DNA of 31,517 nt from a virus. Shown in pieces: positions 3,176 to 30,020 of this stretch. Positions within the stretch are counted from its first letter, which is position 1, and each line of letters starts with the position of its first letter. The translations under genes and the position numbers were made by a program. The notes under the pieces were generated by a model, which ran no database searches, was not told the origin of the DNA, and saw only the letters and a program-made list of their open reading frames with translations. The stretch is from IMG/VR virus record IMGVR_UViG_3300034198_024944, positions 1-31,517 of that record. One strand, 5' to 3'.

Positions 3176-4591
3176 TTAGAAATCAACAAAAATATTTTCT
3201 TCAGAAAAATCCAATATTTCTATTAATTCTTCCTCTATATCTTTATTTTCATTATATTTATCATAAATATCACTCGTTTCAACAGAAAAAACTTTATATG
3301 AAGCATCTGATCCTCCAAAAGTTGTTCCCATTCCAACTATAATTTCACCATCAAGAAACTGACCACTTACAATTGAAACTTTAAGAACTTTTGTATCAAA
3401 ACTCCAGTCTTTAACTCTTGCTGTGGTATTTGATGAAGTTCCTCTAACTATTTCATTAAATAAATAATTTCCAGTTGAAATTCCAGATGGAGGAGAAAAA
3501 ACAATTGATGGAATGGAATTATATCCAGATCCAGCATTAGAATAAAGTGTTGTAGATATTGATCCAGTAGGACTTAAAAATGTTTCTACTTGAGCAGTTG
3601 TTCCTGATGATGGGGAATCTATATAAACATTTGGAAGAGTAGAATACCCAACACCACCATTAGATAAAATTACCGGACCAAGAACTCCTTCATTTATTAC
3701 TGCAGTCGCAATTCCACCAGATCCTGTAGTTCCTTTGATAGTTACAGTTGGAGGAACTGTATATCCAATTCCTGGATTGTTTATAAGAATTTTTTTAATT
3801 GAAGAACCAGTATTTCTTTTTAAAGGAGTTAAAATTGCAGTTGCAGTAGCTGTAACTCCCCCCAAAAGTGGTGGAGAAATTATAACTTCTGGTTCCGTAA
3901 AATAGTTGTTTCCATCATTAATCAAATCTATGTATTGAACTGATTTTGGAGTTACTGAAAGATCTTGTGTAGATGATAAATTTACAGAAGCAGATGCAGT
4001 ATATTTAGTCAAATCATTAATCATATTAATTGTCATAATATAACCAAAATCTTTGACTGATTCATCAACTTCTTGTATTCCTGTGTCAATAACTTCATCC
4101 TCATATTCAAATATTTCACATCTTAATTCATAAACATAAAGATTATTCAGTTGATAAAAAGGTCTCTTTCCTTCAACATATTTGATTTCAAATAAACTAT
4201 TATCTAATGGAAGATATATTAAATCCCCTTCTTCTGGTCTAATTGAAGTTTCAATATCTATTTGTCCAACCAAAAAAGGACTAATAAAATCTTCATATCG
4301 TTCTTTTGATATGATAAAAGTAATTTCATCAGTAGTTCTTACTCCAAATTTTGATAAAATATCTCCCTGTCCCCCAAATCCTTCAAAATTTGTTATATAA
4401 GCTTCTAATCTAAATCCATCATTAAAAGTAGAAAGTATTTCTTCTTTAATGATAGTTTTTTTATTAATAAACTTTCTAGGCATATAAACAACATCTTGCC
4501 CGAACATTCTTAACTGCTCATTGACAAGATCTTGCAATAATCTTTGTTCTGATGGAGAACCGTTCAAAAAATAAGAATTTAAAGGTGCCAT
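3176..4591 (-). CDS. gp14: Neck protein gp14 with an inserted Gly-Tyr repeat array
   Basis: gp14 works with gp13 to close the packaged head and provide the tail docking surface. This 471-residue protein begins MAPLNSYFLNGSPSEQRLLQ and keeps the family N-terminal core to about residue 190, with GQDVVYMPRKF and FGVRTTDEITFIISKERYED. T4 gp14 has 256 residues; the excess here is mostly an insert at about residues 210-373. That insert contains four repeats of the form GxGYxxxPxVxI, such as NNPGIGYTVPPTVTI and SNGGVGYSTLPNVYI. An acidic C-terminal tail of the family type follows, ending FSEENIFVDF. The ATG is one base after the gp13 stop. Confidence 0.93.
   Translation of the reverse strand: MAPLNSYFLNGSPSEQRLLQDLVNEQLRMFGQDVVYMPRKFINKKTIIKEEILSTFNDGFRLEAYITNFEGFGGQGDILSKFGVRTTDEITFIISKERYEDFISPFLVGQIDIETSIRPEEGDLIYLPLDNSLFEIKYVEGKRPFYQLNNLYVYELRCEIFEYEDEVIDTGIQEVDESVKDFGYIMTINMINDLTKYTASASVNLSSTQDLSVTPKSVQYIDLINDGNNYFTEPEVIISPPLLGGVTATATAILTPLKRNTGSSIKKILINNPGIGYTVPPTVTIKGTTGSGGIATAVINEGVLGPVILSNGGVGYSTLPNVYIDSPSSGTTAQVETFLSPTGSISTTLYSNAGSGYNSIPSIVFSPPSGISTGNYLFNEIVRGTSSNTTARVKDWSFDTKVLKVSIVSGQFLDGEIIVGMGTTFGGSDASYKVFSVETSDIYDKYNENKDIEEELIEILDFSEENIFVDF
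3470..3960 (-). repeat. Four-copy Gly-Tyr protein repeat inserted in gp14
   Basis: Four degenerate repeats of roughly 40 residues lie inside gp14. Each has a strand with Gly-x-Gly-Tyr (or Asn-Asn-Tyr), a Pro-x-Val/Ile-x-Ile strand, then a Gly/Ala/Thr-rich strand. Examples are NDGNNYFTEPEVIIS, NNPGIGYTVPPTVTI, SNGGVGYSTLPNVYI and SNAGSGYNSIPSIVF. The DNA copies have diverged, so this is a protein-level repeat. The same repeat occurs in gp7, gp8 and the DUF4815 protein. Confidence 0.8.
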
Positions 4592-4592
4592 T

Positions 4593-5408
4593 TTAAGCTA
4601 TTAAATCTAATGGTGGCAATTCGTATTCATTTTTCAGTTGATATTCTATTTTTTCTATTTCATTTAACGCATCTTGATAAATTTTATCACCATTTAATGT
4701 TATTCCTCCAGGCAATTGGACATTATTATATTTTGTTAAATTCTGTCCCCATTGTTTTTTAATCAATGCTGTCAAATAGGTTTTTAGCCACCAATCATTA
4801 TAAACTGCTGGGGCATCTGCTGGATCAACAATTCTATAGCAATCAATAATTATATACTGATTATCACTAACTTGTTGCCAATCTATATCAATATATAATC
4901 TATGATTTTTTTTATTAAACCTTAGTTGAACATCTGGAGTTATCATTCTGCTAATATCTTCCAAATATTCTTTTACCATAGCATAATTTAATAAGTCTAA
5001 AGCACCATAATAATAAAGATCATTTAAAAATAATTGATATTTAATATTAAAAAGACCACTAGAAATAGTACTTGCATCAACTTTAAAGATACTATTTACT
5101 CCAATTACTGTATCTGGCAATGGAATAAAATTTTGTGCTTCAATATAATTTGATGTTGTTACACCAACTGAAGAATTTGCACTTGAAGGAGATTTTGAAT
5201 TTCTAAAAGTATCAATTTCAAATTGTGATAACTTATGTTTTAAATATACTCTTTCTATTCCATCAAAATGCCTTTCCTGAAAATATTGGAGAGCATCATC
5301 CAGTCTATCATTTAATTGATCTTCATCAACATTAATTTCAATTACAGGAAATCCCAATCTTCTTAAGCAATAATCAAGTAAACCTTGACGACTATTTACT
5401 TCTGCCAT
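4593..5408 (-). CDS. gp13: Neck protein gp13
   Basis: gp13 binds the portal vertex after packaging and forms the neck with gp14. The 271-residue protein begins MAEVNSRQGLLDYCLRRLGF followed by the conserved DEDQLNDRLDDALQYFQERH, the family signature. The later segment with DWQQVSDNQYIIIDCYRIVD and NDWWLKTYLTALIKKQWGQN is also characteristic. T4 gp13 is somewhat longer (309). A strong Shine-Dalgarno sequence AGGAG lies about eight bases before the ATG, and the gene is followed one base later by gp14. Confidence 0.93.
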   Translation of the reverse strand: MAEVNSRQGLLDYCLRRLGFPVIEINVDEDQLNDRLDDALQYFQERHFDGIERVYLKHKLSQFEIDTFRNSKSPSSANSSVGVTTSNYIEAQNFIPLPDTVIGVNSIFKVDASTISSGLFNIKYQLFLNDLYYYGALDLLNYAMVKEYLEDISRMITPDVQLRFNKKNHRLYIDIDWQQVSDNQYIIIDCYRIVDPADAPAVYNDWWLKTYLTALIKKQWGQNLTKYNNVQLPGGITLNGDKIYQDALNEIEKIEYQLKNEYELPPLDLIA

Positions 5409-5429
5409 AAAAATTCTCCTGTTTTTTAA

Positions 5430-5771
5430 TTAACTCGTGGTAACTCCTGCAGTAACTAAAGCAGTTCCTTCAACAACTCTAATTTTTTTAGATCCATCAT
5501 CAAGAAGAACATCATATACATATCTTCCAGATCTTAATTTTGAAGTTAATGTAGAACCAAGAGATATTTTAACTTTTCCAAGATTGTTATTGGGAAATGA
5601 AACTTCAAATTTTGCTGCTATACTATTTGTTTCTGCACTTTTCTTTAAAAAAGAGGCACCAGTATAATTTTCTAAATTTATTAAAGAATTACTTTCATTA
5701 CTTTCAAGAAAAAAATTCTGCTCAAAATCAGCACCGCTTTGAATAACGATATTTACTACATATACTGACAT
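5430..5771 (-). CDS. Small beta-rich virion protein, 113 residues
   Basis: This 113-residue protein is predicted beta-rich and resembles the small beta-sandwich found at the N-termini of some phage baseplate and receptor-binding proteins. The pattern is a QSGADFEQNFFLES strand, INLENYTGASFLKKS, NNLGKVKISLGSTLTSKLRSG, then RYVYDVLLDD and a final VVEGTALVTAGV strand. It lacks a signal peptide and membrane segments. It lies between the baseplate block and gp13, where marine T4-like phages usually carry small structural proteins, so a role in the virion is inferred. The exact partner is unknown. Confidence 0.75.
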   Translation of the reverse strand: MSVYVVNIVIQSGADFEQNFFLESNESNSLINLENYTGASFLKKSAETNSIAAKFEVSFPNNNLGKVKISLGSTLTSKLRSGRYVYDVLLDDGSKKIRVVEGTALVTAGVTTS

Positions 5772-5798
5772 TACTGAAAAATTCTATTTCTTAAGTAT

Positions 5799-5999
5799 TT
5801 AGGTTTTTTTGTTAATTATATTAAAGACTAAATCTTTCAACTCATTTATTTCATTCTTAAGATTTTCTATTTCTTTTTTTTCTTTTAGTATTTTTTCAGA
5901 TATTTTTATATATTCTTCATATTGATAATCATTACAATTTATAATTGCATTTGTTTTTTCATCTCTAAAAAGACCTTTGTGTCCATCTACTGGTATCAT
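5799..5999 (-). CDS. Small coiled-coil protein, 66 residues
   Basis: This 66-residue protein begins MIPVDGHKGLFRDEKTNAII and ends in a predicted coiled coil at about residues 33-62 with EIENLKNEINELKDLVF. Its ATG overlaps the TGA of the giant upstream gene by four bases (ATGA), implying coupled translation. I recall near-identical N-termini in small proteins at the same position in other cyanophages. The coiled coil suggests it oligomerises or binds a larger structural partner, perhaps the DUF4815 protein it is coupled to. This is inference; no enzymatic motif is visible. Confidence 0.75.
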   Translation of the reverse strand: MIPVDGHKGLFRDEKTNAIINCNDYQYEEYIKISEKILKEKKEIENLKNEINELKDLVFNIINKKT

Positions 6000-13525: not shown

Positions 13526-15109
13526 TTAGAACTCCAATACAATTTTAATATCTTCTTTTTGGCTAGGTGATAAAGGAACTGCATTTATGTTATCTATGTA
13601 AATAATTTCACCTGATTTTGTGTTATATTCAGCAGAAGCAATTCCAGAATTGAATACCAATCCCAATTGATATGTATTATTATTTATTGTAAACTCACTA
13701 CCATTAAAATTTTTATCAATAGATAGTTCAGGGCCAATTCTAGTTGAGCTATCAGAATGAATAATTAGTTCTCCTCCAGTTGAAATATCTGGATTTGAAG
13801 TAAATTGATTTATAGTATAATTTACATAATCTGTTGCTAGTCCAACTGGTTGATAATATTTTAAAACTCCAGTAATACTATCCCAAGACGCGACAAATCC
13901 AATAGCAGTTGAACCAAAACCAACATTTTGTGTAATAATTGAATCTAAACCATAAGTGGTTTCAGTTGTTATTCCAGATAACTTTAACGCACTTAATCCA
14001 CTAACTTCAGAATCAGTTAAAAGTTGAACATCACTTCCAACTACAGTTGGATTTTTTATAATTCCGACCCTTCCAAAATCATTTACATCAATTGTATCTG
14101 GGTTTTGTATATTTTTTTGGAATCTTGAATATATTAGTGCTCTATATGCTCCAAGTTCTCTATAAATATCATAACCATGCCCTCCTTTTGGCGGAATAAT
14201 AACATCAAAAGTTGCAATTGTTCCAGTATTTGATAAAGAATCTGGTATTCCTATTCCTCCTGGTCTGAAATCAATTTTCCCTTTTGTATATCCAGAACCA
14301 CCATTTGAAATGTAAACATCAGATACAGAACCAGTAGAATCCACAGTAATTGTTGCGGTTCCATCTTTTCCATCTCCCAATATAGGAATGTTTGAAAATG
14401 ATCTTGGTAATGATTGACTAGATTGATATCCAGATCCTCTACCAGTAATTATGGCAGTATATATTTTTCCATTAATTGCATTATTTTTAATTGTCAAACT
14501 TTCTCCCGAAGATCCCCAATCCTCAGGAACTGGCATATATTCAATAGAATCAAATTTAATAATTTGAGAAGGTTTTATAGTATAAAGATATTTCCAAATA
14601 TATCCATCTCCACTAGTTCCAGCTTGCCTTGGCTCTAAATCAACAAATGTGGGTTCATCAAATGAAGGTTTTCCATTTAGATTATCTGGATCAGAACCAT
14701 TATTCAAACAAATATAAACTTGTAAATTTTCATTAATCACAAAGTAATTAGAATCATAAAGTCTTGGTTTGCTAGTAACATTTGTTAAATTATAAATCGT
14801 ATAGTTATTTCTATACATATCATAAATTGTTCCTGGAGTCCATTGTAATTTTGGGACAACTCTACTTACATCAGCAGAAGTTACCTTTTTTAAAGATACT
14901 ATTGTTTGTTTAATTAAATTTTCTTCATTAAATCCATCAAGAGGTGGTGTTGGCCAGTTTGAAGGAGAACCACCAGCAAGAGTGTTTGTGCTATTTGGTT
15001 GTCCAATAAAAACATAGTAATTATTTGAAGTATAACCAACCGAAACAAGACTCTTAACAAAAGTCTCGGTATTTAATATTCTAAACTGGTCTGATATAAT
15101 AGCAGGCAT
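13526..15109 (-). CDS. gp8: Baseplate wedge subunit gp8, enlarged
   Basis: gp8 is a dimeric component of the baseplate wedge. This 527-residue protein begins MPAIISDQFRILNTETFVKS and has the family features YVFIGQP, LKKVTSADVSRVVPKLQWTP and DMYRNNYTIYNLTN in the first 110 residues. FVVNENLQVYICLNN-type sequence, FVDLEPRQAGTSGDGYIWKY and KFDSIEYMPVPEDWG follow. T4 gp8 has 334 residues. The excess includes two Gly-Tyr repeats at about residues 215-285 (ITGRGSGYQSSQ, ISNGGSGYTKGKIDF) and a C-terminal beta-rich part. The gene starts 29 bases after the gp7 stop with a poor Shine-Dalgarno sequence and ends six bases before the next ATG. Confidence 0.92.
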   Translation of the reverse strand: MPAIISDQFRILNTETFVKSLVSVGYTSNNYYVFIGQPNSTNTLAGGSPSNWPTPPLDGFNEENLIKQTIVSLKKVTSADVSRVVPKLQWTPGTIYDMYRNNYTIYNLTNVTSKPRLYDSNYFVINENLQVYICLNNGSDPDNLNGKPSFDEPTFVDLEPRQAGTSGDGYIWKYLYTIKPSQIIKFDSIEYMPVPEDWGSSGESLTIKNNAINGKIYTAIITGRGSGYQSSQSLPRSFSNIPILGDGKDGTATITVDSTGSVSDVYISNGGSGYTKGKIDFRPGGIGIPDSLSNTGTIATFDVIIPPKGGHGYDIYRELGAYRALIYSRFQKNIQNPDTIDVNDFGRVGIIKNPTVVGSDVQLLTDSEVSGLSALKLSGITTETTYGLDSIITQNVGFGSTAIGFVASWDSITGVLKYYQPVGLATDYVNYTINQFTSNPDISTGGELIIHSDSSTRIGPELSIDKNFNGSEFTINNNTYQLGLVFNSGIASAEYNTKSGEIIYIDNINAVPLSPSQKEDIKIVLEF

Positions 15110-15138: not shown

Positions 15139-18100
15139 TTAAATTAAACCAAAAGTTCTAGATACAACTGGTGCTGTAGAAAGACCAACTATACCATCAT
15201 CTACATTTAAATCAAATGTTTGTGGATTTCTATTTTGTCTATTTTGATATCCATAAAATATTCCCCAAGAATATTTACCATAAAATCCAAGAGAAGTTAC
15301 TCCAACATTTACATCTATTGGGTAACCTGATGGTCCTGGTGCAAAATTACATCCAACTGTAACAATTCCAGATATAATATCAGTTTGAACTCTTTCTACT
15401 CTATAAACACCATCAATAAATGATTTTGCAGTTCCAATTTTAGATTCTGGATAATTTGATAATCCACCAATACTTGTCGTAATTCCAGTTAAAGCATGAC
15501 CACAAGTAGAATTGCTTTCTGTAATTATAAAATAATCTCCAACATTTAGTTGACTATAATTGATCCCATATGAATTTAAAGATGAATAACCTATTCCTAA
15601 TAAAGTATTATCATATTGTTGAGATTTTAAAGTGAAATCTATTGTAGAACTTGCAACGCTAATTTTTGTAATATTTCCAAAATCTCCTTTAGTTCTTACA
15701 GTATAAACAGTTTCAACTTTAGCAGTATTACTTTGAACAAAAAATGGTATTTCTGAATTTACTTTATAACCAAATCCTCCATCATTTATATCAATTGATA
15801 CAATAGATTCATTTTGAATATTTGCTGTAAAAGATGGATAATGAAAAGATGGTTCGGAGTATATACAAGTTCCAGAAAATCCAACTGCAACTATTTTTTG
15901 TTGATAATCTAAACCTGAATAATATTCAAAATCATTAATTTGATTTAACTGATTCGTATTTATTGGAATCCAATAATTTAAATCATTTGATTGATAGAAT
16001 TTTCCTAGTGAGTCTGACAAATAATAATGATTATTATAATATTTTATATTTCTTAAATTTCCTGAAACACCATCTATATTATTTAATGACCAATCATTTT
16101 CTCCAGTTGGTGAGGTTAAAATAGTTAAATTATCTCCAACAGCAATGAATAAACCATCTGCCCAAATAACTTTATATAAATCATTAGTCGTAAAATTATT
16201 AAAAATTATATTTACTGATTTATTCCAAATTTTTCCATCTCTAGAATAAAGAATAGTTCCAGATTTTCCAACAGCAACAAATTTATTTTCATTGCTAGTT
16301 ACTGATAATAAATTTTGATTTATTATTGATGATGAATAATTTAAAAGGGAACTTGTTGTAATACCAGCACCATAAAAAACTGCCCCATTATTTCCAACAG
16401 AAACCCAACTATCAAAATAATTTGAATATACAACTGAGTTTAAATTATCAGTATAAGTAGTTGGAACATATTTTAGTTCATTAAAATTAGATTGAATATC
16501 ATATAATTCCAAAGTATTCCAAGAAGATACTGTAGTTCCTATACCAACGCTTTTTACCACTGTAGAATTGTTTCCTACAGATAGATATATAAATTCTTCA
16601 GATATACCTGTTGGACCACCAACATCAACTGAGTTTAGATTATTTAATCCATACTTATTAAAATTCCAATTTATTCCTTCTTGACTATCGCATACTACTC
16701 CATCATCTCCAACTAAAACGAAAACATTACCATAAACCAAAGAATTTAAACTGCTAATTGTAGTTATTCCAGAAGTTTGTTTCCAAGAATAAACTAAATC
16801 TTTTTCTAATAAACTTGAATTTGAAATTTGGACACTTGGAGAAAGGATATTTTTGTATCCAACTCCACCATAAGAAATCAATATATTTGATATTGTTGAT
16901 GCTGATGATACATAAGCAGTTCCAAATGCTGGAGCAATATTATTATTTTCTACAATAAAAATATTATCATTTTGATATGAAATACTATCAACATAAGAAA
17001 ATATTGGAAAGCAATTATCTACATATATTTTTGTATCAGATGGTAAAACTTTTTTAATTATTTGAGCAGTAGGAGTTACTTTTGAATGCAATCCTGGTCT
17101 TGATTTTGAGTATAAAACACCATTAATAATCTTATCTTCAGTTTGCTTCGTCCAGTCTAAAGCTCGATCTGTTGTTGTATCAATTCCAATACTATCGTAA
17201 GTAAATGTGTCTAACTCATCTACTGAAATAATTTTTTTAACTACTCTTTCAAATTGTCCTTTAACTAATGGTTGATATAAATCTTTATTGATTTGTATTG
17301 TATCTCCTTCTTTAATAGTTGGAGGTGGAACAACTTCCAATACATCACGAACTGAACCTTTATAGAACAATATAACACAATTAGAGTTGGGTTTTGGTGC
17401 TTCTGTAAATACTATTCGTGAGTTTTTAAAATTGTATGAAACTCCAGGTTCTTGTAATATATTATTGAGATATATTAAAATGTTATTATTGATATTTAAA
17501 TCAGATCCAGGAATAGTTTTTAGTGATATTATACTTGTTTTGTTATTTTCAGTTACAGTCAATGAAAAAGTTTTTCTATATCCATTAAAAAATGGAGATA
17601 TATCATTAAATTGTATAAACTCCCCTGGATAATATCCAAAGAATTTATCTGAAAGAACTTCAGTGACTGTAATAACAAATTCACTAAATCCAATACCAAC
17701 TATTGGATTGGTAACTATACCAGTTACTCCTAAAACATCTCCAACTTTATATCCTGTTCCTGGATTAGTAATATCAAATTGAATAATGCTTGATCCATTT
17801 CCAACTTGTACATCTATCTTTGCATCAGTACCAACTCCTATTCCATCTTTTTGATAGAGTGATAAATTACCATACGCAGAAGGTAAGCTTATAATTACCT
17901 CAGGAATAGAGGTATTTGTATATCCACTTCCAGGATTATCAATAGAAAGATAACCAAGTTCTCCTCCTCCTCCCAATCCTAAATCTGCAGAAATAATTGC
18001 TCCCGATCCTATTGTTGATGCTATAGTAACAACTGGTGGGTTTCTATAACCAGAACCATATCCAGTTAAATATATGTTATCAATAGTTCCAGTTGGAGAT

Positions 18101-21100
18101 ACGGAAACAGTAGCAGAAGCACCTACAAGAGGTTGATAACCATAACTGGTAGTAATGGAGACTCTAGATATTCTTCCAGTTTTTGGAATACCACTAATAA
18201 ATTTTATAGTATTATTTCCTGGAGTATCTATTATAAAATCTTTTCCAGAAAATTGAAGAATATTATTTATGAATATCAGAGGATTATTGTTTGAATCAAT
18301 TATACTATTTGTATTCGTAAATATTCCAACCACAGTTTCATTATTTGTTGTCAAAGGATAGTTTGTTCTAGTAATTATTACGGAAGTTGTTCCAACTCCA
18401 GAACTTACATTATGATTTGGTTGTATTTTAACTAAATTATTGCCGATTTCAGATACAATTGTATCTGAATTTATAAGTAAATTATTAGTATTGACTAAGT
18501 TTATTACATCTCCAATAAGTAATAAAGATGTATTTATTCCACTAATAGTATCTTTAAACTGAGATTTAAAAGTTCCAGTATATTTTCCTACTACATTATC
18601 AAGTCCAGTAAATTGAAGAGAAATATCGTCTAATATAATATTTTTATCATTTGATGCTTGAACAAAATCAAATTCTCTAGAAAATACTCTTCCTTGGAAA
18701 CTTGATTTTGCATTTAATGTTGTTGTTACTCCAGCAGTTGAAGTAGATGCGTCAAGGTATGGTATTTTTCCATATGGCGATGTAGAAAAATATAATACAT
18801 CATTGATAATATTATAATCACCTCTCATTATTGCTACTTGATTTGTAGAAGTATGATCCTCTGGTGTTGTTCCTAAATATCCTCTTTCAACTTCTAATAC
18901 ATTTGTAGATCCAATTCCAATACTTATTATTTTTAAATATTCATTATCAATTTTTACAAAATCAATTCCACTAATTGAAGAAATGCCAGAATTAATATAT
19001 ATTTGAGTTGATCCTATTCCAACTGATTGAGATAATTCTGGATACAATCCTCTATAATATGGTGGAGTTTGGAATATATTATCAATTACAATAAATGAAT
19101 TTTCATTTGGATTTGCAAGAGTAAATGAATGAGTTCCAATTCCAAGTGCAACTAAATCTAAAGAATTATCAACTGTTGTGGATAAACCAGATACTTTAAA
19201 TTTATTATCATCTATTTTTTTGACATATAAATTTTGAGGCAAAATGTTAGTACCAAGAACTGTTGGACTTAAATAAACATTATCTAATGGAGAAACTCCT
19301 CCAACATCAGAACCGGAAATTACAATTTGATCCGTTAAAGCATATCCTACTCCACCTTTTATTACAATAACAGAATTTATAATACCAAAACTATCTCTTG
19401 ATACTGTAAATGATGCTCCAGCACCAACACCAACTATTGTTGTTGCGGATAAATTTTGATAAGTTTGATTTGCTTGACCTGGAATAGTGCTATTTGAAAT
19501 TTGTGATACTTGGAAAGATAAATCATTTTGAGGAGTAGCACCTCCCATATAAGTTCCAGAAATTGAAACATTATCGCCTATAGAATACCCTCTACCTCCA
19601 TTATTTAATATAATAGAAGTGGATATTGGTGTCCCAGTATTATCATAAACAATAAATACACTAAATTTAGCATCTGTTCCAATACCACTTGTGTATTTTT
19701 GAGGAAATGGATGCCCATATCCATAAAAAACATTTTTAGAAGCATGTGTTAAATCTACAGAAGAAATTCCAGATACAATAGCATTAATTTGGGAGTTATA
19801 CCCATTTTCATAAATTGCTCCTCCTACAACACCACCACCAACTTCCATAAGAATATTAGATGCGGTAGAAGCAACAGATAAATAAGCAGTATTTCCAGTT
19901 ATAACTTTAATTACTTGAGAACTTTCTACCACTGAAGTAGTTGCTATTCCAATAGGAGTCCCATCTCCATAAGAATAAATTATATTTTGGCCAGTTTGAA
20001 AGTTATGATTTGGTATTTTAAAAGTATTGGATTCTAAGTATATTGTAGTTGTAATTCCATTTGAACTATCAAATTCTCTATAAAAAAGAGGATATGTATC
20101 TAGTCCATTACTATTAGTAAGTTTGAATGAAGTTAATCCTACAATTTGTCCTCCTTGAGTAGAACTACTAATTCCATTAAATTGATTGCTTATATCATCA
20201 ATTAAAATTACTTTATTTGTTTTTGCTAAAATGTAAGGAGTTAAATCTGCTCCTGTTACTTCAACTCTTTCTACAGAACCGTCATCCTCTTGATATTCAT
20301 CTTTAGCAAGAGCAAAATTGTGTTTTGTTTGTAATGAAATTTTATTATCAATTTCAATCACTAGAGTTAAATCAGATTTTGAAATTGGTTTCATATTTGT
20401 GGATTTTGCGATTCCAATTTCAACAGGACCAGAAGTTGTAATTCCAATTACATCAAGGTCAGAAAACTCTACATATCCTGCAGGATGAACTAAAGATCTT
20501 ACTGGTTCTTTCCACTTACTGTAAGGGACTTTTCCTTTAATTGAATAAGAAAACTTTTGGTAATAACGATTATCGGAAATTCTTTGCTGATAATCATTTA
20601 ATATTCCTTTTCTATCATTAGAATAATTTATTTTATCCCTTGAATTTCCTATTTTACTTTCTAAATTAAATTGATTAACTCTGATTACTGTTCCATTTAG
20701 TTTAGAAAGTGTTCCTTTTAATTTATAACCTTCTTTTAACTCTCCAGAACAATTAATCATTCTTAATTCATTGATATCATTATCCCAACCATTTTCCATC
20801 ACAGTTGCATTAAATACGTTATTATTCTTAAGATCATATCCAAGAACTTTTTCATTTGAAGTATAAGATAAGTCATCAATAATAAACATTTCAAATTGAG
20901 CCATATCTTTTCTATTCACAACATATCCATAACCAAAAGTAAGATCATATTCACCAAAAGGAGTCTGCTCTTGGTTGTTATTTAATCCAGAAATATCATA
21001 AGTTATTGTATAATTATTTGTATCTACACTAGTTATAGTGAAAAATCTATATTTGTAGTTAGAAGAATTATAATTTAGTTTGTTTTTATCTTTAATAATG

Positions 21101-24100
21101 CACCTTTCTATAAAAATTTGATCCCCAACTTTAAATGGAAATGTACTTCCAGATTGTCCATAGACATCTGGAACGAGAGGATATAATTGAGCATCAACGT
21201 TAATTAATTCTAAAGTAACATAATTTCCATTTACATCAATTGCATTAATATCATATCCATTTGAATTTCTAGTTGGAATAATATTAAGAGGAACTGAAAG
21301 ATCATTCGTATTTTTTATAATTGATACATTATTTACAGATCCTCCAATAATTGAGCAGGATAACTTTATATTATTATTACCAATAACTTTGAGAATAGGT
21401 GGAACATTATATCGTTTTCCTCCAGTTATTATTCCAATAAAATCAACTCTTGATATATCTTTAATTTGTGCTGTTGCCGGAACACTCAAATATGGTTTAA
21501 GAGTTTTGTCGGTTGGATAATCAAATCCATCCTTTACTCTTTCTAAATAATCAATTTTTCCGACAGAAGAAGAATTTGCAAATAAAACTGCTCCTTTTCC
21601 ATTAGAAGAAGTCACAGAAGAAATTTTTGGAAGTTTTAAATACCCCTTTCCTCCAGAAATTACATTTATTTTTGATATTGGGCCAGAAGATGTAATAGAA
21701 TTTGTATCATAAAAAACAGAATTAATTCCAGATGTTACGGTATATCCAGTAGTTTCTGGTTTTACTGGTAAAGTTATTTTAAAATTATTATCATCAATAG
21801 TTAATATAGAATATTCTCTATTATAAAGACTTGGTTTTATGGAAATTTTATTTCTATTTTTAACTTCATCATCATAACTAATTTCTTTTTCAGTTTGAAC
21901 TGCATTTATTGTCGGTTCAAACTTGTAGTAAATTTCTGATGGAATTAGTGAGTTTTGAGTATCCAATGTATAATTTGGATAAAAATATGATTCTAATTCT
22001 CTAGTGAAATTTTTATCCCTATAAAGGATTAGTTTAAGATTATTGAGAGTAAAATCTGTTAAATCAAATACAATTTGATTTCCTTTAGTGACAGTAATTT
22101 CTGGATTGATTAATGATAATGAATGATTTCCTGTACTTACTGATGTAAGTTGAATATAATTGCCAATCTTTGTATCATATTCGTACTTACAAAGTTTAAT
22201 TTTATCTGGATTTAATCTAAGAATAAAATATTTTTCTTTATCTTGTAGTCCTCCTATTGGATTATTTCCATTAGAATAATAAGCAACTTTATCTCCGGTA
22301 TTTAACTCATTATCTGTTATTTCTATTTCAGAAGTATTAAGATCAACACCATTATTTGTTGAATCAAAATTTATAAATTGAGATGTAATTTTTCTTAATT
22401 TTTTATCATATCTAAAAGCAATTGATTGAGTTAAACTTGGAAATAGGTTAAATTTTATATTTTGATCATTTAATAATTCGTGAGGATCTGAAGTAGTTAT
22501 ATTTGCCGAATAATTTTCTATTTTTCCAGTTATAGGATTAAACTGTGTTGTTAGTGAATGAGCAACTCCAATATTTTGATCGTAAATAAAATATAAAGAG
22601 TTTAAGCTTGAACCTATTCCAATTGAAGTAGTAAATCCTAATGTAGAAATTCCAATATAATCCTTATCAAACACTACTGAATAAACAGTTTGTTGATCTT
22701 CAAGGTAAAATGATACACCAATTCCAGTATTAGAAACTTTTATTGGATTTCCATTAATTCCACTTGCGTATGTTAAAGATTGACCCGTATAAAAGTTGTG
22801 TTTTGGGACATAAATTCTTCTTTCCGAAATATACCTATCGTTTCCACTAAATTCTGTATAAGTTGTTCCTTGTGTTCCATAACCAACAGAAGAATATGGA
22901 TCAAAATAAATGATAAAATTATTTACTGAATATGATTTTAATTCATCTACAATAAAATTAAATTCTGTTGGCAATAGTTTTACTGAAGAAATTCCTGCTG
23001 TATGAACTCCAGAATATGCTTGACTTCTAATAATTCTAAACTTAGATTGTTGCGCAGAAATTTCAATAATTCTTACTATTTCATCGTCAATTTTTATTAA
23101 ATCATTTACTTTAAATCCAGAAATATCATTTACTGAAATATAAGTAGAAAAACCAGTTATTGATGTAGATAAAATATCAGTTGTTATTCCTACTGTTTTG
23201 TTATTAACTAATATTTTTTTAAATCCATTTAAAGAAGAAAAATTAACATCAGATATTGAGGATACTAATACTACATCTTCATTTAACAAATTGTGGGGTA
23301 TTTTTGTATCTACAAAAATTGTATTTGATTTGTTATAAACGGAAACATTTGTAAAAGTTGAAATGCCAATCTGTATAGATGAAATATTTTTTCCTAAAAC
23401 TCTTTCAACTATTGCTGATGCTGATGTTCCTCCTGTATTTTCATTATTAAAAACTAATACATCATTTACCTTATAACCAAATCCTGATGAATAAACAGTA
23501 ACTGAGGTTATTCCTGCTGGATATGTTTTTTTGACAATAAAATCTTGTTTATAATTTGATTGTACCTTATCAATTAAATCATATCTAGATGTTAAAGAAT
23601 TGATATAATATGGACCGTTATTTCTGATAATGTCAATATTTTGTAAATTACTATCTTGATTGAACCCACTATTAAAATTATCTTTTATTGGATTATTCTT
23701 GAATTTATTTCCAATTACATATGGATATGCTGGATTATCAAAGTCATCTAAAGTGCAAAAATAAGCATAAATTCCATCTGGAAAATCATTGTTTTTTATA
23801 AATTTCCCATTAAACTCATCTAAATCTCCATATTCTCTATTGAATGGATAATCTTGAATAAAATATCCAGGAGGGAAATTTTTTGGTCTTATTGAATAAT
23901 CTAAAGATGTGGGGGTAGAATAACTAGATTTTACTTTCCTATATGAAGAACCATCTATAATGTATGGTCCATAAATTGGATTTCCATCATATGCCCATCC
24001 AACAATTGGAGATTGCTTATTTTGATTACTTTCTTTTAAGGTTGAATCAATATTATCATCTAATTGTTTTCTTAGTTCTTTAGGAGCATAAAAATTAATA

Positions 24101-27100
24101 AATTTTAAACCTAAGGATTTATTTTCACTAGGAATGATAAAGTTATCGTCATTTAAATATAGTGGTTTATTTTTTACTACTTGATTTATGCCCCATTCGA
24201 ACACATTTCCTTCAAATTCTGCTCCAGAACCTCTTTTTTGAATTTCAATTTTAGTATTTTTATTATAACCAATTCCAGGATTTAGAATTTTTAATGAAGT
24301 TATTTTTCCATTTTCTACAATTGGTAAAATATCTGCATATTTTCCATTTCCTCCAGAAATTACAACATCAATATCATTTTCATATCCGTTTCCAGAGTTC
24401 AAAATTTGAACATCAATTATTGAAGTATTTGAAATTATTGGTTTCAATAAAGCCGTTGAAGATGGTTGTAAAATAGTAACTAGTGGTTTTCTGTGAAAAT
24501 TAATAATTTCAGATGTTCCATAACCAACTCCAGGATCTTCTAAAAATACACTATCAATTGATCCAAGAACTATTGGTTCCAATACTGGAGAAACAATCGA
24601 AGTTTGACTTATTCCTGGGACTACTTGTATTTTAATTTCAATCTTAGGATATGCAAATGTATGAGTTCCTATTCCAGAAGAATGTAAATCTACATATTCT
24701 TTATTAATATATCTTTCTTTTGTGAATTGAGTTCCAATTCCTGCTTCTGAAAGTTTAAACCTATTTTCATCAATGGTAGTTACAATGTATTGAGTCTCAG
24801 TTGAAAGACCTCCTATTGAAGATGTGGTATAAGAATAATTTACAATATCTCCATTTAAAAAGTTATGCCCATTTGCCTGAATATAATTATCATGAGTATT
24901 AATTCCAGAAGTAGTTCTAATGGATTTGTTTGAATACCCACTTCCAGGATTTTTTACATAAATTTTATTAATTGTATTTTTTGAATTTAAAGTTTGAAAA
25001 TTATGAATTCCACTACTAATTCCAATAATATTTACAGTATTAATTCCTGATATAGAATCTTTATATGATTTATAAAGATTAATTTGATTTGAACTTACTA
25101 TACCAACAAAATAACTTGAATTGTCAGATAGAAAAAAGTTTTTATTTTTTAGAACATTATTTATTGTAAAAGATTCACGACAGATAATGGGAACATTTCC
25201 ATTTGAATTATAAATTATTTCCTCTGCATTTTCAAAATTATGATTATCAATGAATGTAATAATATCATTATTGATATCAACTCCGTTTGTATTTCCTTTA
25301 AATGAAGATGTAATTCTTTGTTTTATTAAATTTGGTTCTAATATTGCTCCTGATCCATTTCCGCCTTCTATCGTAATTTTTGGTTTTTGTTTATAACCAA
25401 TCCCAGGAGAAATAATTTTAACTTCTTTTACTGAACCAGTAACATTTGCTATTCCTTTTGCATCAATTCCTGTTCCTGCCGGATCCGTAATTGAAATTTT
25501 TGGGCCATTAATTACATCATAACCATTTCCTTTTCTTTGAACATTAATATTAATTAAATTCCCATAAAAAATACTTTCATTCAATACAGTTGGAGGATAT
25601 ATTTCAACTCCATTTACTAGTAGCCCAACCGGATATCCTTTTGTAGATTTATCAGTATCAAAAGAATTTAATTTATCAGTTTTTGATATATTAAATTTTT
25701 TAAATAGTTTTTGATGTTTTAATTTTTTTATTCCTCCCTTATTTTGACCATAGAGATTTTTATCATAAAAACCATCTTTAATCAAAAATTCATTTGAAGA
25801 AAAGGAAAGTTTATTATATTTTGAAAAATCAATATAAACTCCAGAAAAAAGATCACTTTGATTAAATGCTAAACTAATTTCAATATCATTTATTTTTTTT
25901 ACAAAATATTTGCCACTTTTTAGATAATTTTGTGATTGATTTGCGGAATTAAAATATACTCTTTCTCCTGTAAGAAACTCGTGTATAGTTTGAGTCCTAA
26001 TTGCATAACCATCTTCTGATAAACTTAATAATTTTACCACATTTATATTAGATGATATTTCATAATTTGGAATTCCAGAAGAAGCAACATAAACATTATT
26101 AAAATCATAGTCAGAATAAGTATTTTGAACTCCTGCCTCTAAATTTTTTATTTCAGGAAAAATATTATCTAAACAATTTGACTTATTAATTATTTTTGAA
26201 ACTATATTTTTTCCAAAAATATTGGATGTTGTTTGTATTTGAATTGTATTTGTTGAAATTATTTTTTCAACTTGAACTAACAATGGAATATCATCTTGGA
26301 TATTGGAGTTAATTAAATAAATTTTTTCACCAAAAACAAATTTTACATTATCTTTTAATGTTATTGTAACTAAATTATTTGAACCAAATGGTTCAGTTAT
26401 TGATTGTATTTCATGTTTAGTTGGAATATTATAAATCCAACTATTTGCTTGAATTTTATCACTTAAATTTACTCCAAATTCAGATAAAGATATTTTATCT
26501 CCAACTCTAATTCTAGATGTTTTTGAATAATCAATAGTATTAATTACATTCAATAATCTCATTTGAATAATAGATCCATCATCCAAATAAGAATATAAAA
26601 AGTTATTTTCTACAATTTTATCACCAAAATTTAAATTATTAGTAATTCCAGATACACCAATAAATTGATTAATATTTTTATCAGTATAACTTAATTCAAG
26701 TGATCCTGAATAATTTGAAGGAAATGCAAGAAATGTTCCACTGTTTCCAAAACCAATAGTAGAATCTACAAAAATAGAACTAGATCCAGCAGAAACTTTT
26801 TCTAAAACATTTGTTTTTTTAGTTATATTAAAATCATAAATTAAGGAAGTAGAATCTAAGGAAATTTCATAAAAATCTTTTTTTCCTATTGGTCTATACT
26901 CTACATTATAAACAGAAGCGCTTGCAGTTCCAACTCCAACAATTGATTGAAATATATTTTTTCCTTTAAGATTTTCTATATTTCCACCGCTAATTTTTTC
27001 TACTAAAATATTTTTAGTAAGAAAATAATTATTTGTTGATGGTTTTAAAGTATAATCTTTTGGTTTTATAATTTGTATTTGTTCACCAAAAAGAACAGAA

Positions 27101-27741
27101 AATAATATCTGAAAAGAAATATCCGTTCCTTTTGAAATATAAAAGTCTTTTGCCCTTGATAATACTGTTTCTAAATTTAATTTTGGATGAAGTTGCCTAT
27201 TTTCAAACCCTGGCAAAAATTGAGATTTGAATTTATTAAATAATTTCTGGAAAAAAATTAAATTTAAGTTAGTTATTTCAGTATTAGCAAAATGAGTTTC
27301 TGCTTGTGTGGATAAAAACTCTAAAAATTGCGTATTGCCTGTTTTGTCTAGATTGTCAATTCCGCTAAATCCACGAATGCACCCTGTAAAAGAATTGATA
27401 GTTTTTCCGGTATAAGTAATAATTTCATCATCAATTTTAAACAATCCATAAGAATCTGGAAATCCAATTGTATGACTTACATTAATTGTATCGTCAAAAG
27501 TTAGAACATCAGATGTTAAGACTGGAGGATATTGCGAACTATAAAAAGTTTCGTTATTAAAGTTATCAATACTTTTATATTTGTTCAGATTTTTTGATAA
27601 GTCTACTAATCCAGTTTGATGCTCTTGAGAAACATAATACTGTTGCAAAAACTCCTTAAATAAAGGATAATCAGCATTTAAGAACTCTGGAATTTGAGAT
27701 TCAATAATTGATTGGATTTTTATTTTTTTAAATTCCGACAT
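15139..27741 (-). CDS. gp7: Giant baseplate wedge protein gp7, 4200 residues
   Basis: gp7 starts baseplate wedge assembly and contacts gp8, gp10 and gp6. The conserved ends identify it. The N-terminus has MSEFKKIKIQSIIESQIPEF and PLFKEFLQQYYVSQE, then FYISKGTDISFQILFSVLFG near 200-222. The C-terminus has YSWGIFYGYQNRQNRNPQTF and ends STAPVVSRTFGLI. T4 gp7 has 1032 residues, so this protein is about fourfold larger. The interior is a chain of beta-rich modules: about fifteen Gly-Tyr repeats, three IDDEII-type modules, several HNFxxG segments, a YHYH-like domain (1244-1347) and a beta-propeller-like region (3651-3965). The frame is open throughout 12.6 kb with no sign of frameshift. The ATG directly abuts the gp6 stop (TAAATG). 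Large gp7 proteins are known in cyanophages; the domain calls are mine. Confidence 0.9.
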   Translation of the reverse strand: MSEFKKIKIQSIIESQIPEFLNADYPLFKEFLQQYYVSQEHQTGLVDLSKNLNKYKSIDNFNNETFYSSQYPPVLTSDVLTFDDTINVSHTIGFPDSYGLFKIDDEIITYTGKTINSFTGCIRGFSGIDNLDKTGNTQFLEFLSTQAETHFANTEITNLNLIFFQKLFNKFKSQFLPGFENRQLHPKLNLETVLSRAKDFYISKGTDISFQILFSVLFGEQIQIIKPKDYTLKPSTNNYFLTKNILVEKISGGNIENLKGKNIFQSIVGVGTASASVYNVEYRPIGKKDFYEISLDSTSLIYDFNITKKTNVLEKVSAGSSSIFVDSTIGFGNSGTFLAFPSNYSGSLELSYTDKNINQFIGVSGITNNLNFGDKIVENNFLYSYLDDGSIIQMRLLNVINTIDYSKTSRIRVGDKISLSEFGVNLSDKIQANSWIYNIPTKHEIQSITEPFGSNNLVTITLKDNVKFVFGEKIYLINSNIQDDIPLLVQVEKIISTNTIQIQTTSNIFGKNIVSKIINKSNCLDNIFPEIKNLEAGVQNTYSDYDFNNVYVASSGIPNYEISSNINVVKLLSLSEDGYAIRTQTIHEFLTGERVYFNSANQSQNYLKSGKYFVKKINDIEISLAFNQSDLFSGVYIDFSKYNKLSFSSNEFLIKDGFYDKNLYGQNKGGIKKLKHQKLFKKFNISKTDKLNSFDTDKSTKGYPVGLLVNGVEIYPPTVLNESIFYGNLININVQRKGNGYDVINGPKISITDPAGTGIDAKGIANVTGSVKEVKIISPGIGYKQKPKITIEGGNGSGAILEPNLIKQRITSSFKGNTNGVDINNDIITFIDNHNFENAEEIIYNSNGNVPIICRESFTINNVLKNKNFFLSDNSSYFVGIVSSNQINLYKSYKDSISGINTVNIIGISSGIHNFQTLNSKNTINKIYVKNPGSGYSNKSIRTTSGINTHDNYIQANGHNFLNGDIVNYSYTTSSIGGLSTETQYIVTTIDENRFKLSEAGIGTQFTKERYINKEYVDLHSSGIGTHTFAYPKIEIKIQVVPGISQTSIVSPVLEPIVLGSIDSVFLEDPGVGYGTSEIINFHRKPLVTILQPSSTALLKPIISNTSIIDVQILNSGNGYENDIDVVISGGNGKYADILPIVENGKITSLKILNPGIGYNKNTKIEIQKRGSGAEFEGNVFEWGINQVVKNKPLYLNDDNFIIPSENKSLGLKFINFYAPKELRKQLDDNIDSTLKESNQNKQSPIVGWAYDGNPIYGPYIIDGSSYRKVKSSYSTPTSLDYSIRPKNFPPGYFIQDYPFNREYGDLDEFNGKFIKNNDFPDGIYAYFCTLDDFDNPAYPYVIGNKFKNNPIKDNFNSGFNQDSNLQNIDIIRNNGPYYINSLTSRYDLIDKVQSNYKQDFIVKKTYPAGITSVTVYSSGFGYKVNDVLVFNNENTGGTSASAIVERVLGKNISSIQIGISTFTNVSVYNKSNTIFVDTKIPHNLLNEDVVLVSSISDVNFSSLNGFKKILVNNKTVGITTDILSTSITGFSTYISVNDISGFKVNDLIKIDDEIVRIIEISAQQSKFRIIRSQAYSGVHTAGISSVKLLPTEFNFIVDELKSYSVNNFIIYFDPYSSVGYGTQGTTYTEFSGNDRYISERRIYVPKHNFYTGQSLTYASGINGNPIKVSNTGIGVSFYLEDQQTVYSVVFDKDYIGISTLGFTTSIGIGSSLNSLYFIYDQNIGVAHSLTTQFNPITGKIENYSANITTSDPHELLNDQNIKFNLFPSLTQSIAFRYDKKLRKITSQFINFDSTNNGVDLNTSEIEITDNELNTGDKVAYYSNGNNPIGGLQDKEKYFILRLNPDKIKLCKYEYDTKIGNYIQLTSVSTGNHSLSLINPEITVTKGNQIVFDLTDFTLNNLKLILYRDKNFTRELESYFYPNYTLDTQNSLIPSEIYYKFEPTINAVQTEKEISYDDEVKNRNKISIKPSLYNREYSILTIDDNNFKITLPVKPETTGYTVTSGINSVFYDTNSITSSGPISKINVISGGKGYLKLPKISSVTSSNGKGAVLFANSSSVGKIDYLERVKDGFDYPTDKTLKPYLSVPATAQIKDISRVDFIGIITGGKRYNVPPILKVIGNNNIKLSCSIIGGSVNNVSIIKNTNDLSVPLNIIPTRNSNGYDINAIDVNGNYVTLELINVDAQLYPLVPDVYGQSGSTFPFKVGDQIFIERCIIKDKNKLNYNSSNYKYRFFTITSVDTNNYTITYDISGLNNNQEQTPFGEYDLTFGYGYVVNRKDMAQFEMFIIDDLSYTSNEKVLGYDLKNNNVFNATVMENGWDNDINELRMINCSGELKEGYKLKGTLSKLNGTVIRVNQFNLESKIGNSRDKINYSNDRKGILNDYQQRISDNRYYQKFSYSIKGKVPYSKWKEPVRSLVHPAGYVEFSDLDVIGITTSGPVEIGIAKSTNMKPISKSDLTLVIEIDNKISLQTKHNFALAKDEYQEDDGSVERVEVTGADLTPYILAKTNKVILIDDISNQFNGISSSTQGGQIVGLTSFKLTNSNGLDTYPLFYREFDSSNGITTTIYLESNTFKIPNHNFQTGQNIIYSYGDGTPIGIATTSVVESSQVIKVITGNTAYLSVASTASNILMEVGGGVVGGAIYENGYNSQINAIVSGISSVDLTHASKNVFYGYGHPFPQKYTSGIGTDAKFSVFIVYDNTGTPISTSIILNNGGRGYSIGDNVSISGTYMGGATPQNDLSFQVSQISNSTIPGQANQTYQNLSATTIVGVGAGASFTVSRDSFGIINSVIVIKGGVGYALTDQIVISGSDVGGVSPLDNVYLSPTVLGTNILPQNLYVKKIDDNKFKVSGLSTTVDNSLDLVALGIGTHSFTLANPNENSFIVIDNIFQTPPYYRGLYPELSQSVGIGSTQIYINSGISSISGIDFVKIDNEYLKIISIGIGSTNVLEVERGYLGTTPEDHTSTNQVAIMRGDYNIINDVLYFSTSPYGKIPYLDASTSTAGVTTTLNAKSSFQGRVFSREFDFVQASNDKNIILDDISLQFTGLDNVVGKYTGTFKSQFKDTISGINTSLLLIGDVINLVNTNNLLINSDTIVSEIGNNLVKIQPNHNVSSGVGTTSVIITRTNYPLTTNNETVVGIFTNTNSIIDSNNNPLIFINNILQFSGKDFIIDTPGNNTIKFISGIPKTGRISRVSITTSYGYQPLVGASATVSVSPTGTIDNIYLTGYGSGYRNPPVVTIASTIGSGAIISADLGLGGGGELGYLSIDNPGSGYTNTSIPEVIISLPSAYGNLSLYQKDGIGVGTDAKIDVQVGNGSSIIQFDITNPGTGYKVGDVLGVTGIVTNPIVGIGFSEFVITVTEVLSDKFFGYYPGEFIQFNDISPFFNGYRKTFSLTVTENNKTSIISLKTIPGSDLNINNNILIYLNNILQEPGVSYNFKNSRIVFTEAPKPNSNCVILFYKGSVRDVLEVVPPPTIKEGDTIQINKDLYQPLVKGQFERVVKKIISVDELDTFTYDSIGIDTTTDRALDWTKQTEDKIINGVLYSKSRPGLHSKVTPTAQIIKKVLPSDTKIYVDNCFPIFSYVDSISYQNDNIFIVENNNIAPAFGTAYVSSASTISNILISYGGVGYKNILSPSVQISNSSLLEKDLVYSWKQTSGITTISSLNSLVYGNVFVLVGDDGVVCDSQEGINWNFNKYGLNNLNSVDVGGPTGISEEFIYLSVGNNSTVVKSVGIGTTVSSWNTLELYDIQSNFNELKYVPTTYTDNLNSVVYSNYFDSWVSVGNNGAVFYGAGITTSSLLNYSSSIINQNLLSVTSNENKFVAVGKSGTILYSRDGKIWNKSVNIIFNNFTTNDLYKVIWADGLFIAVGDNLTILTSPTGENDWSLNNIDGVSGNLRNIKYYNNHYYLSDSLGKFYQSNDLNYWIPINTNQLNQINDFEYYSGLDYQQKIVAVGFSGTCIYSEPSFHYPSFTANIQNESIVSIDINDGGFGYKVNSEIPFFVQSNTAKVETVYTVRTKGDFGNITKISVASSTIDFTLKSQQYDNTLLGIGYSSLNSYGINYSQLNVGDYFIITESNSTCGHALTGITTSIGGLSNYPESKIGTAKSFIDGVYRVERVQTDIISGIVTVGCNFAPGPSGYPIDVNVGVTSLGFYGKYSWGIFYGYQNRQNRNPQTFDLNVDDGIVGLSTAPVVSRTFGLI
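15847..16791 (-). repeat. Seven-fold repeat in gp7, probable seven-bladed beta-propeller
   Basis: Residues 3651-3965 of gp7 contain seven copies of a roughly 45-residue repeat whose core reads aromatic-V-A-V-G-x-x-G-x-I-x-x-S-x-D-G-x-x-W. Examples are VFVLVGDDGVVCDSQEGINW, FVAVGKSGTILYSRDGKIW, LFIAVGDNLTILTSPTG and IVAVGFSGTCIYSEPS. The pattern is that of Ycf48/BNR-like propellers. The last copy lacks the closing Trp, whereas an unpaired SWKQTSG strand precedes the first copy. This is what a ring closed by its first and last strands would show. Confidence 0.7.
23701..24012 (-). other. YHYH-like domain inside gp7
   Basis: Residues 1244-1347 of gp7 read SPIVGWAYDGNPIYGPYI at the start, DLDEFNGKFIKNNDFPDGIY in the middle and AYPYVIGNKF at the end. 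Order and spacing resemble the YHYH protein family, which has GxAxDGxPIYGP, LDExNG, FPDGTYHYH and PYFIG. The namesake YHYH is changed to YAYF near residue 1325, so any metal or ligand site may be lost. Confidence 0.7.
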
Positions 27742-29619: not shown

Positions 29620-30020
29620 TATACTCTAGTTGGTTGTAGTAAAAATTCTATATTTTGTGTTGGAAGTGGAAGTCCAACAATATCATAAGAAATTTGAACA
29701 TTAATTTCATTTTGTTCTTCAAATAATGTTGTTTCAACATTTCTTAATCTGATTCTGGGCTCAAAATTATTCAATACTGTTGAAATTTCATCATCCAAAA
29801 TGATAGAAACTTCCTCCGAAATTAATTCAAATAAAGAATCATTTACAGAAGTTCCTAATAAAGAATTAAAAAATCTTTCATTTAATCTTGTTCGAACCAA
29901 ATTAATTACAGATTTTTTAATTGCATCCTCATTTATAATTGAAATCAAATCATTTGTAATAGGATTTCTACTAAAAGATAAACTAATATCTTTAAAATAT
30001 CTAGAAATACTAACAGCCAT
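29619..30020 (-). CDS. gp25: Baseplate wedge subunit gp25 (gpW/gp25 family)
   Basis: gp25 is the baseplate component that starts sheath assembly. The 133-residue protein matches T4 gp25 in length (132). It has FSRNPITNDLISIINEDAIK, then NLVRTRLNERFFNSLLGTSV and the EPR motif (residues 87-89 in NNFEPRIRLRNV) that is conserved across contractile injection systems. It opens the baseplate block and overlaps gp6 by one base. The Shine-Dalgarno sequence is weak. The 39-base leader has a TATAGATA sequence that could be a late promoter. Confidence 0.95.
   Translation of the reverse strand: MAVSISRYFKDISLSFSRNPITNDLISIINEDAIKKSVINLVRTRLNERFFNSLLGTSVNDSLFELISEEVSIILDDEISTVLNNFEPRIRLRNVETTLFEEQNEINVQISYDIVGLPLPTQNIEFLLQPTRV

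Follow-up and report, generated by a model that had tools for sequence, protein, structure and literature searches.

The window analysed here, a 31.5-kb IMG/VR virus contig (31,517 nucleotides, 28% G+C), carries T4-like cyanophage structural genes, all on the minus strand, among them gp25, gp6, gp7, gp8, a gene for a DUF4815 protein and gp13. The order gp25-gp6-gp7-gp8 runs from position 30020 down to 13526, with gp7 lying between gp6 and gp8. The gp7 gene (15139-27741, minus strand) is a single open reading frame (ORF) for a baseplate wedge protein of 4,200 amino acids that matches phrog_2885 (baseplate wedge subunit) with an E value of 0. Furthermore, an N-terminal profile of cyanophage gp7 matches T4 gp7, residues 191-221 (window 27079-27171) aligning with T4 gp7 residues 728-758 (E = 5e-5) in a match confined to this one 31-residue stretch. 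Gene order, phrog_2885 and the N-terminal profile together identify the protein as a T4-type gp7. T4 gp7 has been stated to be absent from these phages (PMC7029224), and in T4 itself gp7 is a peripheral wedge protein with six copies per tail (PMC3004832). Since it is residues 191-221 that align with T4 gp7, the beta-propeller described below falls in an extension absent from T4 and is not placeable by homology.

With respect to gene organization, gp7 is one ORF in the window phage and in S-SCSM2R, and is annotated as two ORFs in S-SSM7 (L003:1-17758), Sf-FS3 (L005:259-17788), DSL-LC02 and B23; in S-SSM7 and Sf-FS3 the two halves are separated by a fibre-like ORF of about 340 amino acids, unlike the single ORF of the window. 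A YHYH domain (PF14240, E = 3.6e-19) is encoded at 23746-24036 (gp7 residues 1236-1332), far upstream of the propeller. Three proteins of the window phage, gp7, gp8 and gp14 (15139-27741, 13526-15109 and 3176-4591), share a short GGxGY beta unit, which accounts for the matches of both gp7 and gp8 to phrog_460 (head closure); it looks like a building block common to virion proteins. A host recognition cluster has been reported between the DUF4815 gene and gp13/gp14 in cyano- and pelagimyophages (PMC7029224). No such cluster is present at this position in the window (3176-5996), where a single short ORF lies between the DUF4815 (VrlC-like) gene and gp13/gp14, so that the tail fibres must be encoded elsewhere.

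The domain of interest occupies gp7 residues 3651-3965, which correspond exactly to window positions 15847-16791 (minus strand). A blade HMM built from relatives alone, with the window copy left out, was scored on the whole of the window gp7 and found seven units (residues 3665-3694, 3700-3752, 3766-3807, 3810-3842, 3853-3894, 3894-3931 and 3933-3965), each scoring 15-29 bits. Together they reach 138 bits, compared with at most 6.6 bits among 500 shuffles of the same residues, and no eighth unit was found anywhere in the 4,200 residues (the next candidate scores -3.7 bits). In the seventh unit the match is confined to HMM positions 1-28 and hence leaves out the Trp strand. All 35 non-redundant sequences share an orphan Trp, W3653, in the segment VYSWKQ ahead of blade 1. 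An earlier note on this DNA had proposed seven consecutive repeats, preceded by an orphan Trp strand and ending in a blade without its Trp, and all of this is borne out. Repeats of the type it described, VAVGxxGxIxxSxDGxxW, are indeed present, but the full motif occurs in blade 4 alone and the remaining blades are degenerate; the uniform repeat length of about 45 residues that it gave does not hold, since blade 3 lacks a Trp where one is expected and blade 2 contains a longer insertion, so that blade lengths range from 31 to 65 residues.

Taking the HMM units together with an AlphaFold2 model, we delimit the following elements, all on the minus strand. The putative closing strand VYSWKQT (16774-16794; strand at model positions 59-61) precedes blade 1 (residues 3665-3701; 16639-16749), which is followed by blade 2 (3702-3766; 16444-16638), whose outer strand and loop are long and variable, and by blade 3 (3767-3810; 16312-16443), whose outer strand is without Trp. 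Next come blade 4 (3811-3854; 16180-16311), whose full motif reads VAVGKSGTILYSRDGKIW, blade 5 (3855-3895; 16057-16179), blade 6 (3896-3934; 15940-16056), which is the most conserved blade and reads YYSFDLxNWxxR in relatives, and blade 7 (3935-3965; 15847-15939), which has no Trp strand of its own. The propeller is flanked by two small beta units, unit a (3611-3640, VSSASTISNILISYGGVGY...; 16822-16911), with three strands in the model, and unit b (3970-3998, ...SIVSIDINDGGFGY...; 15748-15834), also seen in the model. The gp7 C-terminal domain (3999-4200; 15142-15747) follows; it is present in phages with and without the propeller and is more conserved than the propeller.

The AlphaFold2 model covers gp7 residues 3595-4200 and was computed from 43 sequences, drawn from the window and IMG/VR only; its mean pLDDT is 81.5, with propeller blocks between 75 and 97 and mostly about 90. 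The predicted strands fall into seven sets, six of four strands and a last one of three in which the C-terminal strand of blade 7 is missing. In VIA-align comparisons, model positions of about 52-372 are superposed on entire propellers of seven blades with Z scores of 28-29 and rmsd values that lie mostly between 2.3 and 2.8 A. For WDR5, RACK1, LIS1 and the designed seven-bladed protein 7big, each with Z above 28, the rmsd is about 2.6-2.7 A over some 276-286 residues, and 7big is matched as a whole (Z = 28.6, rmsd 2.6 A, 276 residues, model 58-371). Foldseek, which weighs sequence too, places Ycf48 as the nearest solved structure (E = 1e-10). The structure prediction and fold search thus uphold the seven-bladed fold, and with the Ycf48 profile and PSII_BNR matches given below they make it nearly certain that the predicted domain is a closed seven-bladed ring. 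The earlier note had also held that the ring closes by strand swap. The ring part of that claim stands, as the model superposes on whole seven-bladed propellers; a strand-swap (velcro) closure by the N-terminal strand fits the model, in which the short strand bearing the invariant Trp (3653-3655) is free to complete the three-stranded last set. We infer this pairing from the fold and not from coordinates.

The relationship to Ycf48 is also visible in sequence. A profile of eight diverse phage propeller copies matches Ycf48 by sequence alone (E = 2.5e-8), the DSL-LC03 propeller exceeds the cut-off of the Pfam family PSII_BNR (PF14870; 30.9 versus 27 bits), and 11 of 43 relatives match PF14870 with E values of up to 0.1. 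The window's own copy has no PF14870 match and, as a single-sequence query, retrieved nothing useful from Pfam, PHROGs, NCBIfam or the PDB, so the link to Ycf48 is visible only through relatives or profiles. The whole 43-sequence alignment, used as a profile against the PDB, gave no match at an E value of 0.01, unlike the propeller-only profile of eight copies.

Several hallmarks of characterized propeller families are missing from the window copy. Ycf48 binds D1 through a patch of six conserved Arg (PMC10403576); this patch is absent from the window propeller, which has only two Arg, R3834 and R3897, neither of them conserved in the family, and a net charge of -12. The catalytic Arg triad of sialidases is absent for the same reason, and the lack of both Arg sets makes a photosynthetic or sialidase action unlikely. 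Furthermore, we find no Trp-Asp dipeptide, the WD40 hallmark, within residues 3651-3965, and no canonical Asp-box (S-x-D-x-G-x-T-W), although two shortened ones, SQEGINW and SRDGKIW, occur. A conserved acidic set inside the ring was not found either; where polar residues are conserved, they are mostly Ser, Tyr, Trp, Asn and Thr.

Using tblastn, we find the propeller in 13 phage records, in every case in a cyanophage gp7, and more remotely in DSL-LC02. The gp7 proteins of S-SSM7, S-SCSM2R, Sf-FS3, S-8S56, S-CAM9 and DSL-LC03 carry an orthologous propeller at the same position (26-29% identity), and the public gp7 records that we checked do not name a propeller. In phages without it (S-SM2, Bellamy, B23, P-SSM2, S-T4, P-TIM68, S-B05, ACG-2014f and SynMITS9220M01), the two beta units, which follow the pattern VSaaGTIssIxIxdGGxGYxxxPxVxI, are neighbours ahead of the C-terminal domain; in carriers, the propeller is placed precisely between them. 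When the propeller profile was run on the whole records of 16 phages, six of them carriers, full-length matches were obtained only in gp7 of those six; in most of the non-carriers the profile matches beta units of the type of unit b alone, and in ACG-2014f it has no match in the whole record. A candidate second propeller in S-SRM01 was rejected, as the single match corresponds to GGxGY beta units in another gene. The long insertions of S-SM2-type gp7 were likewise rejected as propellers in the same slot, being YHYH-like modules at other places. In six IMG/VR contigs, S-SM2-type gp7 contains a varying number of FTCxxD...HxYPRxxDPxY modules, inserted upstream of the gp7 C-terminal region, which indicates that the gain of beta modules by gp7 is not confined to one place.

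In a tree built from the N-terminal part of gp7, a single branch (support 96/98) separates the eight carriers from the other phages, so that presence and absence require one change, a value that none of the label shuffles reached; this result is based on 18 genomes and a midpoint root. The carrier clade is deep, its end branches reaching 1.26 changes per site. As the drawn root has non-carriers on either side, the simplest interpretation is that the propeller was gained once. Sequences related to this end of gp7 are encoded on at least 303 IMG/VR contigs, and the propeller is present in all 57 contigs that were aligned, which were found partly via the propeller itself. We observe no loss or swap within the clade, the propeller being kept in 8 of 8 genomes and, with the same reservation on how they were found, in 57 of 57 contigs. 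Examined for presence, absence and variability among related phages, as the earlier note had suggested, the propeller is therefore a feature of one clade, absent from others and always at the same gp7 position.

Within the C-terminal region of gp7, conservation is lowest in the propeller, whose mean pairwise identity is 42% versus 58% for the C-terminal domain; between the window and its relatives, the values are 35% and 54%, respectively. Among 15 close pairs, which have lineages in common and are hence not independent, dN/dS amounts to 0.16 for the upstream part of gp7, 0.21 for the propeller and 0.12 for the C-terminal domain, and the propeller value is below 1 in all 15; in dN alone, the propeller exceeds the C-terminal domain by a factor of about 2.6. 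We found no variable binding face: loop classes differ little and no face of the ring is markedly variable. Blades 2-5 are more variable than blades 1, 6 and 7 in one close cluster, and across the family the per-blade difference is not significant (P = 0.12). The propeller is thus under purifying selection with slightly more freedom than its surroundings, and does not bear the signature of a diversifying tip.

These observations bear on what the propeller may do. Among the alternatives considered, the one that we take most seriously, while leaning against it, is a receptor-binding domain that contacts a glycan or protein of the host surface and helps to set host range independently of the tail fibres. 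Precedents exist in the propeller of the phi11 receptor-binding protein (RBP) and in PhiKZ gp131C at the baseplate periphery (PMC4901313), a Caulobacter phage tail fibre contains related propeller units, and both the low conservation and the raised dN of the propeller would suit such a part. Against this, dN/dS is well under 1 and barely above that of the rest of gp7, swap and loss are not seen in the clade, the ring has no markedly variable face, and the role of gp131C itself is unproven. The suggestion in the earlier note of a receptor-binding or decoration domain on a baseplate wedge was a fair guess, given the precedents. It fits less well with a dN/dS that is only mildly raised, with a single origin and with the absence of swapping, all of which argue against a fast-evolving specificity determinant. 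A stronger form, in which the wedge protein gp7 of this clade, and not a tail fibre, bears six host-sensing propellers at the baseplate rim, appears improbable to us; if true, host contact could be felt directly by a protein that moves at the baseplate switch.

That the domain is instead an inert structural element, a spacer or bulk at the baseplate rim, seems quite unlikely. It would agree with the propeller-free gp7 of other cyanophages and with the tolerance of gp7 for insertions that the beta modules at other places in S-SM2-type phages imply, but such an element would hardly persist, as the propeller does, in all sampled phages of a deep clade and show a dN/dS below 1 in every pair. Many propellers are glycosidases, and an enzyme of the sialidase, glycosidase or lyase kind acting on a host surface glycan could find encouragement in weak matches of relatives to a glycosylhydrolase model (S-8S56, 33 bits at a cut-off of 175) and in the adjoining C-terminal part of gp7, weakly similar to the barrel of phage endosialidases (Z = 7.5); since every glycosidase-family match falls far below its cut-off and neither an Arg triad nor a conserved acidic set is present in the ring, we hold this to be very improbable. 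The barrel similarity comes from a model of the propeller-free S-SM2 gp7 end (L110:2480-3445; compare window 15142-15747), itself of low confidence (62.9), which aligns with the endosialidase 4hiz over 82 residues (rmsd 2.6 A) and finds no support from sequence. Least credible of all is a captured host Ycf48 with an auxiliary metabolic function, acting on photosystem II during infection. Cyanobacteria carry Ycf48, and it is the closest solved relative by both Foldseek and sequence profile. Nevertheless, the phage propeller is internal to a virion protein of 4,200 amino acids, with no free ORF, and it lacks the Arg patch for D1 binding. Ycf48 works in the thylakoid lumen, out of reach for a baseplate protein.

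Propellers commonly serve as binding scaffolds, and the reading that we prefer, to which we give an even chance, is that the gp7 propeller would act as a rigid disc that binds a steady partner. The strand just ahead of blade 1 would supply the outer strand of blade 7 and thereby close the ring, and the whole ring would have been plugged in between two copies of the small beta unit, within the long C-terminal extension of cyanophage gp7 that has no T4 counterpart. The disc would be non-catalytic and presumably sit on the baseplate exterior, judging from the peripheral location of T4 gp7, with six discs per virion if the stoichiometry of gp7 is as in T4. The disc would more probably engage a steady partner than be itself the variable part that sets host range. 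This partner might be a second protein of the baseplate or a fibre protein, or else a host-surface ligand that does not vary, and a role in docking another part of the baseplate is about as compatible with the data as receptor binding. The dN/dS values of 0.16, 0.21 and 0.12 along gp7 are as expected of a held interface, and the related units in the Caulobacter phage tail fibre and in a collagen-like actinophage neighbourhood fit a binding role at the virion surface.

Little is known of the recognition of Synechococcus and Prochlorococcus by T4-like cyanophages, whose baseplates are unlike that of T4. A propeller in a fixed gp7 slot, present in one clade and missing from its sister, offers a clean domain for expression, binding tests and baseplate maps. 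Genomes known for a long time, S-SSM7 among them, and many marine contigs encode it, although the gp7 records checked do not name it. We found no description of a propeller in cyanophage gp7 in the open-access literature, subscription papers and preprints being outside the scope of the search.

With respect to known systems, the domain resembles Ycf48 (PDB 2xbg, 5ojp and 5ojr) in being a closed seven-bladed propeller, and differs from it in lacking the Arg patch, in being part of a virion protein and in sharing only about 15% identity over the model. The C-terminal domain of gp131 from the Pseudomonas phage PhiKZ (PDB 4GBF) is likewise a seven-bladed propeller in a myophage baseplate, thought to be peripheral (PMC4901313); it belongs to a different protein, the gp7 propeller being inserted instead in a T4-type wedge protein between beta units. 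We found no sequence relation between the two; the structural likeness is taken from the published description (PMC4901313), and the absence of gp131C from the best 50 Foldseek or VIA matches is not evidence against it. The RBP gp45 of Staphylococcus phage phi11 is also a phage baseplate protein with a propeller closed by an N-terminal strand (PMC4901313), but its propeller has five blades, and it is a dedicated homotrimeric RBP with a putative, modelled GlcNAc pocket. Members of the same blade family occur outside wedge proteins, with two HMM units in the tail fibre KSC_gp039 of Caulobacter phage KSC and seven in a free-standing propeller of the Actinomycetia phage DSL-LC01 (WJZ48562; L022:2908-3780). 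The latter is a fibre neighbour that lies between collagen-like genes, and its annotation as a photosystem II assembly factor is probably only a transferred name. A 596-amino-acid ORF of Limnohabitans phage DC31 (L106:5419-7209) has about twelve blade units and is probably two propellers in tandem. The fold, the family and the kind of place are thus already known; what is new is this fusion, its slot between the beta units and its clade-wide distribution.
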